Below, piece after piece: positions 39,288 to 43,621 of a DNA stretch of 64,000 nucleotides. Position numbers and translations under genes: made by a program. How positions within the stretch are numbered: the stretch's first letter is position 1; each line of letters starts with the position of its first letter. Location: positions 1 through 64,000 of the forward strand of contig JADFXG010000006.1 in the NCBI GenBank assembly GCA_015233895.1, written 5' to 3'. Under the pieces are notes generated by a model, which saw only the letters and a list, made by a program, of their open reading frames with translations, was not told the origin of the DNA and did not search any database. Source of the stretch: Nitrospirota bacterium (lineage in GTDB: Bacteria; Nitrospirota; Thermodesulfovibrionia; Thermodesulfovibrionales; Magnetobacteriaceae).

Positions 39288-40799
39288 TTACAACAGTTTT
39301 CTATCAAAAGACCATTTTCTGTTTCCGATGTCGTCTCTGATAATCAATTCTGATGTTATTACTGAGGATATACAGATATTTGGCAGACCACTGCCGGGAT
39401 GGGTTCCACCGCCAACGATATAGCAATTAGATAGTTCCTCAGACCTGTTATGTGGCCTGAAGTAAAACATCTGATTCAGGTTATGGCTTAGGTTAAACAC
39501 TGCTCCTTTAAATGTATTAAATCCGTATTCCCAATCTATGGGCGTAACAATTTTTTCCACCTCGATATGGTCTCTTATGTCTTTGATTTCTGTTTTTTTA
39601 CAAATATTATCCAACACCTTATCTCTGAAATCCTGCTTTATCGCCTCCCAGTCAATCAAGGCTTTATTATTTGGTACCGGTACAAGGATGTACATAGTGG
39701 ATTTCCCTGAGGGTGCTAAAGTGCTGTCTGTAACAGACGGATTCTGAATATATGCAAAGGCGGTTGACGAGGGTTTTTGAGTCATTGCTATATCATCCAT
39801 GCTCTTTTTAAAGTCATATCCAAAAATCAGGTTGTGATGCGCCATATCATATTGCGTATTAATACCGAGATACAGCACAAATGCAGAACACGAGTAATCA
39901 CGTTTTTGTAAGTTACTATCTGTGTACTTTTTGCGCTCACCGATTAAATTTGACATCGCATACGCAAAATCAGCATTGATTACCACGTAGTCTGATTCCA
40001 CTTTGTCGCCATTTTCTAAAAGTACCCCTGTCGCTTTTCTGTTCTTTCTCAAAACCTGCCGCACTGAAGTGGATGTGTGAATTTTCCCCCCGTATCCCTC
40101 AATAACTTTGGCCATCGCCAATGTTAATTGGTTTAATCCCCCTGTTACATGAGCTATTCCCCATTTATGTTCTATAAAAGATATTAAGGTGTATGCTGAG
40201 GGCGCTCTCCACGGAGACATCCCTATATACTTTGTCTGAAAGGACATAGCTAATTGCATTTTCTCATCACTAAAATACTTTTTAAGCCGTCCGTTAAGCG
40301 TATTAAATATGTCCAACTGAGGGAGCGCCTCTAAGAAATGAGGCTTCAAAAAATCAGACATTTTTTCGTACGCTACTTTAAAACAACCCTCTATTCGCCT
40401 GAACCTATAGTGCTCGTACTGTTTAAATTTCAGGTAATTATCCACCTCTACGGGAAACAAACGCTTTATCTCCGCCACGGTTTTCTTTTCATTCGATGAT
40501 GGGAAAAACTCTGTGCCGTCTGCAAATTTTAACCGGTATAGCGGGTCAAGCATCTTAATCTCTACGTAGTCTTTTAAGTTTACACCGGAAAGAGCAAAAA
40601 GCTCCTCTACGTACTGTGGCATTATTAAAAGGGTCGGCCCTATATCAAAAGAGTAACCGTTAAACGTAAATCTGCCAGTGCGGCCTCCAACGGAATTCCC
40701 TTTCTCATAGACAGTTACGTCATACCCCTTATACGACAACAACATAGCAGCTGCCAACCCTCCGGGGCCGGCTCCAATTATGGTAACTTTCTTTTTCAT
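39288..40799 (-). CDS. Phytoene desaturase (CrtI)-family FAD oxidoreductase
   Basis: 503 aa. N-terminal dinucleotide-binding motif VTIIGAGPGGLAAAMLL then VYEKGNSVGGRTGRF; central GGLNQLTLAMAKVIEGYGG and VVINADFAYAM; C-terminal GGGTHPGSGLPNICISS, the CrtI-type FAD signature. Family members desaturate or oxidise carotenoid or related polyprenyl chains. No other carotenoid gene lies nearby, so the substrate cannot be told. It follows the selenoprotein gene in the same direction (55 nt), and may be co-transcribed. Confidence 0.9.
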   Translation of the reverse strand: MKKKVTIIGAGPGGLAAAMLLSYKGYDVTVYEKGNSVGGRTGRFTFNGYSFDIGPTLLIMPQYVEELFALSGVNLKDYVEIKMLDPLYRLKFADGTEFFPSSNEKKTVAEIKRLFPVEVDNYLKFKQYEHYRFRRIEGCFKVAYEKMSDFLKPHFLEALPQLDIFNTLNGRLKKYFSDEKMQLAMSFQTKYIGMSPWRAPSAYTLISFIEHKWGIAHVTGGLNQLTLAMAKVIEGYGGKIHTSTSVRQVLRKNRKATGVLLENGDKVESDYVVINADFAYAMSNLIGERKKYTDSNLQKRDYSCSAFVLYLGINTQYDMAHHNLIFGYDFKKSMDDIAMTQKPSSTAFAYIQNPSVTDSTLAPSGKSTMYILVPVPNNKALIDWEAIKQDFRDKVLDNICKKTEIKDIRDHIEVEKIVTPIDWEYGFNTFKGAVFNLSHNLNQMFYFRPHNRSEELSNCYIVGGGTHPGSGLPNICISSVITSELIIRDDIGNRKWSFDRKLL

Positions 40800-40854: not shown

Positions 40855-41394
40855 TTAAGCATATAGAGCCGCCTCGTTCAAAAGCTCTTCGGCAGGCGGA
40901 TACCCTGCAATATCTTTTGAGTAATGTGCATATCTTATTGTGGAGGTGCGGTCAATAATAAAGACTCCAGAAAGTTGAAATATGTCACCGACCGGCACTC
41001 CGGGAAGATGTCCTCTTACTAATGCCCTCATGCCGTGCACTAAAACCTTTGGGGAGGCGATACCAGTGAGTCCTGCGCTAAAGAGCTCATACACCTTGTA
41101 TAAATGTTTATGCGGATCGCAGATAATTTTAAATGTTAATCCATGATTTTTACGAAATGATTCCGACTGTTTTACACTACCCATACCGACAAGTATTATT
41201 TGCGTACCTAGTGCGTCAAAGAGTTCCTTTTCTCTGTGCAACTGCACAGCCTGCTCTTTGCAAAATGGTCACCCAAAGTGTCGTAAGAACACAAGCATCA
41301 CATTGCCCTGCTGCCATAGAGTGCTTAAGTTTGTCTCAGTACCGTCTGAAAGCAAAATGTTTGTGTCGGGGGCTGTATCGCCTTGTTTTAACAT
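40855..41394 (-). CDS. Peroxiredoxin-like (AhpC-TSA_2 type) selenoprotein with in-frame UGA
   Basis: 179 aa when UGA at 41271-41269 is read as selenocysteine. ATG 41394 has GGGAGG about nine bases upstream. Residues 1-41 (GDTAPDTNILLSDGTE; MLVFLRHFG) and the part after the UGA (PFCKEQAVQL, GMGSVKQSESFRKNHGL, CDPHKHLYKVYEL) are in one frame and together match the AhpC/TSA-like family, whose active site is RHFGCPFC. The UGA replaces the first Cys, giving Sec42-Pro-Phe-Cys45, the commonest place for Sec. A SECIS-like hairpin follows directly. No other interruption exists. Likely a thiol/selenol peroxidase or reductase in the cytoplasm. Selenocysteine machinery genes are not in the window. Confidence 0.88.
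41218..41259 (-). promoter_or_regulatory. Bacterial SECIS-like hairpin
   Basis: In the mRNA, CUGUGC-AGUU-GCACAG forms a perfect 6-bp stem with a four-base loop (DNA 41249-41234), and a lower stem AAAGAG/CUCUUU (41259-41254 with 41223-41218). G in the second loop position lies 27 nt after the UGA, within the range reported for bacterial SECIS elements bound by SelB. Confidence 0.75.
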
Positions 41395-41645
41395 ATAAAA
41401 AATCCTCCCGCATTAATCATTGAATATTGTTAATTCTTTACTATACTCCTTGTGGTCTTAGCTTTCGTGATAGTAAATTATACCACAGAGTTGGATTATT
41501 GTTCGATAAACAGGACATTAAATGTGACGGGTTTATCTTAGTATCTTTTAAACTTTAATTAAATAGTTAAATGCTTATTGAATTAACTCTGGCAGAGGGT
41601 TTTCAGGATTCTAAGTAGGTAGGTTTCTTTTTTTTTAAGTGGAAA

Positions 41646-42102: not shown

Positions 42103-42396
42103 ATGGCAAGAAAAACAATTAACTACAAAGACACTTTACTGGAATCCTTAAGAGACTCTGAAGAGGCTGCGGCATATATTAATGCCACTTTAGATGAAAA
42201 CTCAAGGGAAGCTTTTTTGCTGGCTCTTCGCAATATCGCAGATGCCAGAGGGTTTGTAAACGTTTCAAGAAAAGCAAACCTGAGCAGGGAAAGCATGTAC
42301 CGGATGTTATCGGAAAAAGGAAATCCCAAACTTTCAAGCCTCTCTTCATTACTTGATAGCCTGGGCTTGAAATTCGCCGTTGAAGTTAAAGAATGA
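42103..42396 (+). CDS. HigA-like (addiction module antidote) HTH protein
   Basis: 97 aa, the usual size. YKDTLLESLRDSEEAAAYIN then a helix-turn-helix FVNVSRKANLSRESMYRMLS and the conserved NPKLSSLSSLLDSLGLKFAV end, as in the TIGR02684-type antidote family. Such antidotes normally follow a HigB/RelE-type toxin gene; none is found within 700 bp upstream or downstream, so this one is orphaned. GGAAGG is five bases from the ATG. Confidence 0.88.
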   Translation: MARKTINYKDTLLESLRDSEEAAAYINATLDENSREAFLLALRNIADARGFVNVSRKANLSRESMYRMLSEKGNPKLSSLSSLLDSLGLKFAVEVKE

Positions 42397-42451: not shown

Positions 42452-43621
42452 ATGATATTGACGAGACGTCTCGGTAATTGTCCAGAATGTGGTGGGGTAA
42501 ATACTTATCCCTTCTTGTTTATAAGTAACAACAACATGATATATAAATGTAAAAAATGTAAGGAAACCCAATCAAAGGCACTTCCTCTTATAAAAAAGAA
42601 AATCATTTACCTTGACCAATTTTTTCTTTCAAAAGTATTCAGAAAAAGTGAGGAAGATTTTATTAAAGCGTCAGAGACACTGACACGATTAGCATATTAC
42701 CAAGTCCTTGTCTGTCCCTATTCGACAATTCATGAGACAGAAACACATCAATGGAGATATAATGAGATGGCAGAGCTTTTTGAGTTCATAAAGAGATATT
42801 CAAGAGGACACTATTTTGAAGCTGATTATGAAGTAGAAATGACGCAGCTTAAACGCTCTTATGAAGCCTTTTTAAATGGAGCTTCCCCCGCAATTGGTCT
42901 GTTGGAACAAGACGCAGTACCTGAAGACGTACATCAGTGGGATAACCATATATTTGTTGATGCAGGGAGGTATGTTGAGGATGCCGAGTTAGTAAGAAGC
43001 CTTAAGAATCAGGTCGTGGATAATATAATAATGGACATTGACGAATGGAGGAAACAACGCCTATCTTTTGAGGAGATTTTTGAACTAAACGTGGGGGCAT
43101 GGGAAAAAACTGTTAAAGATGCGTTTAAAGAACTTAAATTTCAGACAATAGATAACCCGTTATTTTTACCAATTTTGAGTAAATACCTTATGCAACTTTT
43201 TATGTTTAATAGCCGGGGAGAAACACCAGATGAACGTTATCTCAAAATGACGGAATATATGAAATCGGACTATATTAAACATATACCATTTGTCAACATA
43301 TTTTCTAAAATTTATAGCTTGCTCCGATAAAAAGTTCAGCAAGGGCAGTTCCCTTCAAATGTTAAGAAAATAAAGAAGAGTATCTCAGGCTTATATTTCG
43401 ATGCAAAATTTATTTCTGTTTATGCCCCATACTGTGATGCCATGTTTGTTGACAATCATATGCGCCAATGGTTAGTAGATGACAATATAAATATTCAGAA
43501 TATGTATTCAGTTAGAATCTTCTCAAAGGAAAATATTAAGGAGTTTGAATTGTTCCTTAATAATATTGAAAATGACGTATCTGAAGAACATAAAGTGATC
43601 GTTCGTGATATTTACCATTAA
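42452..43621 (+). pseudogene. PIN-like/zinc-ribbon protein gene interrupted by a stop codon
   Basis: A 292-codon frame stops at TAA 43328-43330, but the same frame continues without a gap for 96 codons (ISGLYFDAKFISVYAPYCDA, FVDNHMRQWLVDD) to TAA 43619. The whole would be about 389 aa. The N-terminus has a zinc ribbon (CPECGG...CKKCKE), then KKIIYLDQFFLSKVF, a PIN-like first strand with Asp, and the tail YCDAMFVDN, the usual last acidic element of PIN-like domains. A nonsense mutation has probably inactivated it; the first part may still be made. Family placement is tentative. Confidence 0.7.

Follow-up and report, generated by a model that had tools for sequence, protein, structure and literature searches.

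Can a gene that is split by a TGA codon in a Nitrospirota genome nonetheless direct synthesis of a full-length redox protein, with selenocysteine (Sec) at its active site, and if so, what might that protein do? The question is raised by a locus at 40855–41394, on the minus strand of the 64,000 nt stretch of DNA analyzed here (the window). The first-pass annotation had claimed that a frame opening at ATG 41394 is interrupted by a single UGA, and translation with TGA read as U agreed in full: the frame runs for 179 codons from ATG to TAA, contains exactly one internal stop, a TGA at 41269–41271 (minus strand, residue 42), and is intact and conserved 3′ of that codon. A likely ribosome-binding site, GGGAGG, can be seen directly in the sequence upstream of the ATG (41401–41410, minus strand), and a promoter scan gave no excess over shuffled sequences. 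The candidate Sec42 is the first residue of a U-P-F-C motif, and the TGC codon at 41260–41262 (minus strand) specifies Cys45, its partner in UxxC. As had also been anticipated, ordinary ORF calling recovers only a 130-residue ORF that starts at GTG 41247, and a truncated annotation of this kind would conceal the catalytic residue of a selenoprotein. Conservation of the UGA at codon 42, a bacterial Sec insertion element (bSECIS) hairpin on its 3′ side and a complete set of Sec genes in the genome lead us to read the locus, on sequence evidence, as almost certainly a genuine bacterial selenoprotein gene. The joint claim, that it is a selenoprotein gene and encodes a UxxC redox site, is only slightly less secure and we consider it highly probable.

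The encoded protein was originally described as peroxiredoxin-like and assigned to AhpC-TSA_2. It does match AhpC-TSA_2 (PF13911), in overlap with AhpC-TSA (PF00578), and the assignment can be sharpened to NCBIfam NF040769 (SelL-related redox protein; 156.4 bits, cut-off 120), with the match beginning at residue 7. This model recognizes every one of the 21 aligned homologues. A literature search for NF040769 or SelL-related proteins returned nothing relevant, and the family is uncited in the selenoprotein papers that we compared. SelL itself carries two Sec residues in a UxxU motif. The window protein resembles SelL, a Prx-like protein (PMC2398784), in its fold and in opening its redox motif with Sec, but it has a single Sec and is not SelL in the strict sense, as the motif is UPFC and every homologue has a TGC or TGT codon for the second redox residue. 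The AhpC/TSA selenoprotein (cd02970/PF13911) also shares PF13911 and a leading Sec, but its motif is UxxS (PMC13188914, PMC9312934) rather than UxxC. Prx-like thiol:disulfide oxidoreductase selenoproteins (PF00578, UxxC/UxxU) have in common with it the UxxC motif and the PF00578 match, although that grouping is broad and the window protein has a closer family of its own in NF040769. Nor does the protein have the TxxC/TxxU signature of typical peroxiredoxins, since in HFGUPFC there is no Thr three residues before Sec42 or Cys45.

A structure predicted from the 21-sequence alignment (mean pLDDT 89, pTM 0.86) has a helix, residues 43–54, that begins at the residue following Sec42, an arrangement found in thioredoxin folds. 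Foldseek matched the model to peroxiredoxins, which were the best hits, and to human prostamide/PGF synthase. In a profile search the human enzyme came first (7.7e-15; PDB 9us9, 9usa) and is the best solved relative, with its C44 and C47 in the columns of U42 and C45. Human prostamide/PGF synthase is a Cys enzyme whose substrate is prostaglandin H2; the bacterial protein differs in having Sec42. Sequence comparison places the protein in a family of thioredoxin-fold proteins to which human prostamide/PGF synthase is related.

We compared the critical codon across 21 homologues, including the window gene, drawn from relatives, the phylum and a public genome set. The UGA had been said to occupy the position of the family's first Cys in CPFC, and the alignment bears this out: 15 sequences have TGA in the same column, and the remaining 6 have TGC or TGT there. 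The TGA-bearing set comprises the window gene, 11 loci of the same family, 2 Nitrospirota of the same class and 1 Poribacteria metagenome-assembled genome, so that 14 of the 15 are Nitrospirota. Residues invariant across the alignment are F36, L37, R38, G41, U/C42, C45, D93, Q140 and G143. On a tree of the 21 homologues 3–4 Sec/Cys changes are needed, with long branches that make this history unsure. The use of Sec in the SelL-related/AhpC-TSA_2 family is thus extended to a UxxC form in Nitrospirota. Because the codon is read from a genome assembly alone, one might suspect that the TGA is an artifact of sequencing or assembly, or a recent nonsense mutation in a Cys gene undergoing decay, but the chance of either is negligible given that 14 further loci in many genomes, with identities down to 34%, carry TGA at the same codon and that the frame beyond it is intact and conserved. 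A misread TGC or TGT, which the first-pass annotation had named as grounds for abandoning the selenoprotein reading, is likewise not an error of one assembly, as independent genomes have TGA there.

The next element required for Sec decoding is a bSECIS. A stem, CUGUGC-AGUU-GCACAG, had been placed 20–35 nt past the UGA, and we find it at that position (41234–41249, minus strand). Published criteria for bSECIS elements (PMC13188914, a 2026 review) call for an apical loop of 3–9 nt, an upper stem of 4–16 bp, a G within the first two loop positions, a UGA-to-loop spacing of 16–37 nt and a minimum free energy of at most −7.5 kcal/mol. The hairpin is within every one of these limits, with a 4 nt loop that begins AG, a 6 bp stem, a spacing of 25 nt, and a free energy of −9.1 kcal/mol when folded alone and −9.1 to −11.7 kcal/mol overall. 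A possible, weak accessory hairpin of 5 bp just upstream of the stem (41250–41264, minus strand) is predicted in the window and in the Poribacteria homologue (L076); it is paired in only 80% of alignment cells and not well conserved. By itself the apical hairpin is weak evidence, because a comparable structure (≥6 Watson-Crick pairs) lies past 1.4% of the TGA triplets that the window contains. Free-energy z-scores are also modest, at only −1.3 to −1.6 for stretches of 42–54 nt and 0.2 for 84 nt.

The pattern of substitution in the stem is more informative. Among 13 of the Nitrospirota Sec sequences, pairs of codons that specify an identical residue are different 14% of the time at stem codons 49–54, as opposed to 53% elsewhere, and codons 50–52 (GTG CAG TTG) are invariant. 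In the Poribacteria sequence a hairpin of the same length, UGGCAC-AGUU-GUGCCA, occupies the same place and has the same loop with other base pairs. Over the alignment 95% of stem pairs are formed and 4 of the 6 pairs have changed on both sides, a level reached in 0 of 500 shuffles; all of the double changes in these 4 pairs come from the one divergent Poribacteria sequence and may represent few events. Two Nitrospirota sequences outside the family (L053 and L054) retain the four inner pairs of the stem and no others, and the stem cannot form in any of the six Cys homologues. The occurrence of TGA in 15 of 21 homologues, the frozen codons and the compensated stem pairs together exclude chance.

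Decoding also demands a dedicated tRNA and its partner proteins. The first-pass annotation had suggested looking for the sel genes in the genome, and selA, selB, selC and selD were all found in the assembly (3.71 Mb in 65 contigs, rated 100% complete), with every score over its curated cut-off. The tRNA-Sec gene (selC) scored 70.7 bits versus a gathering score of 47 and has TCA at the anticodon position; selA scored 605 bits, selB 362 bits and selD 315 bits. The selD gene (L018) has its own in-frame TGA, in AAGUVSK, and a formate dehydrogenase-like gene (L111), a canonical type of Sec enzyme, has one in RFUHSPTVAG. These two genes likely encode further selenoproteins of the same genome. As selB was present in 58 of the 60 genomes searched, Sec decoding is general in the group. 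A TGA near a second molybdopterin-enzyme gene (L115) was not counted as a Sec codon; it precedes the conserved Cys motif and is not accompanied by a stable hairpin. The tRNA-Sec gene (L022, 5425–5518) is not beside selA or selB, and two genes that adjoin it (L022, 5992–8638) resemble type I CRISPR Cas5/Cas8, as judged by reading their sequences only.

These data also bear on a genome-wide reassignment of TGA, such as one that would make it a Trp, Gly or Cys codon. TGA is indeed a rare stop in the window, ending 3 of 47 called genes as compared with 30 for TAA and 14 for TAG; yet it does terminate genes there, the frames of 1123 and 422 residues among them, and the long frames in the window are uninterrupted and show none of the scattering of TGA through many conserved housekeeping genes that reassignment would entail. 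The genome has the full Sec machinery, and conservation of the SECIS stem is confined to homologues that bear the TGA. We regard reassignment as having next to no likelihood.

Termination at the UGA, with a 130-residue protein initiated at GTG 41247 as the real product, is what standard ORF calling implies. That GTG, however, is inside the SECIS stem and past the active-site motif, the 41 residues that precede the UGA are conserved and included in the match to the family model, and the ATG at 41394 has a plausible ribosome-binding site on its 5′ side. A true stop is therefore very improbable, if marginally less so than error or reassignment, and we return to readthrough of the UGA as Sec.

From established knowledge, SelB with Sec-tRNA-Sec would bind the AGUU-capped hairpin, and Sec would be inserted at the UGA. 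The predicted readthrough product is a 179-residue, peroxiredoxin-like protein with a thioredoxin fold. The selenol of Sec42, positioned at the N-terminal end of the first helix in the active site, could attack an oxidized substrate such as a hydroperoxide, an endoperoxide or a disulfide; Cys45 would then resolve the intermediate by forming a selenenylsulfide with Sec42, and this bond may be reduced by a donor of the thioredoxin type. We consider UxxC redox chemistry of Sec42 and Cys45 to be likely, with good though not overwhelming confidence. The substrate class and the electron donor proposed here are suggested solely by the fold and the neighboring genes.

Among those neighbors, one stands out. 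The gene 55 nt 3′ of the selenoprotein gene, at 39288–40799 on the minus strand, encodes a 503-residue CrtI-family (phytoene desaturase-like) FAD oxidoreductase (TIGR02734; 473 bits, cut-off 238). In all 12 selenoprotein loci of the source's bacterial family, a gene for such a CrtI-family enzyme comes next in the same orientation. The two reading frames overlap by 4 nt in 6 loci and are separated by 1 to 69 nt in 5 others; in the remaining locus (L082) the CrtI start codon is not resolved and the match abuts the selenoprotein stop. No other cluster of neighboring genes recurs in more than 3 loci among the 14 relatives compared. The first-pass annotation had not mentioned this conserved pairing, and a literature search for a selenoprotein with phytoene desaturase, which was not exhaustive for selenoprotein neighborhoods, found nothing relevant. 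One genome (G015) has two copies of the selenoprotein-CrtI pair (L032/L088 and L049/L094); its completeness is rated at 84% and its contamination at 3%, and one of the copies may therefore be of foreign origin.

Despite its resemblance to phytoene desaturases, the CrtI-like enzyme is probably not one, because no member of PF00494 (phytoene/squalene synthase) was found in its own genome or in 18 relatives, while the same search matches 7 control genomes. A constant CrtI partner without phytoene/squalene synthase provides a concrete functional hint for this bacterial SelL-like family. We infer from gene order that the selenoprotein and the CrtI-family protein share a task, and propose that the selenoprotein works with the flavoprotein of the adjacent gene, the substrate probably being a lipid such as an isoprenoid.

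The main competitor to this proposal is that the selenoprotein is a general peroxidase or antioxidant that is unrelated to its CrtI-family neighbor. Peroxiredoxins are the best structural matches, SelL-like genes in more distant Nitrospirota outside the family (L091–L093) have no CrtI gene beside them, and in two genomes (G009 and G011) a CrtI-family gene occurs without the selenoprotein. Against such a role, the two genes are adjacent in 12 of 12 family loci while the other neighbors change, and in six of these they overlap by 4 nt. On balance we lean toward a functional link between the selenoprotein and the CrtI-like enzyme, and give the general peroxidase a smaller but substantial share of the probability. 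The most specific version of the linked reading, a dedicated two-gene, selenium-dependent redox module that acts on an isoprenoid or a lipid of Nitrospirota that are probably magnetotactic, is tentative, and we would sooner expect it to need revision than to hold as worded. Under this reading, the 4-nt overlaps might couple synthesis of the flavoprotein to successful Sec insertion in the gene before it.

The magnetotactic label comes from taxonomy. Nitrospirae bacterium MYbinv3 is one of the magnetotactic Nitrospirae whose genomes have been analyzed, and most such genomes fall in Magnetobacteriaceae (PMC8353452). The genome that holds the window is of the same family as MYbinv3, and on this ground the organism from which the window derives may also be magnetotactic. 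Elsewhere in the window, a 292-residue frame at 42452, which has no family match, comes after a gene for an HI1420-type addiction module antidote protein (TIGR02684) at 42103–42396.
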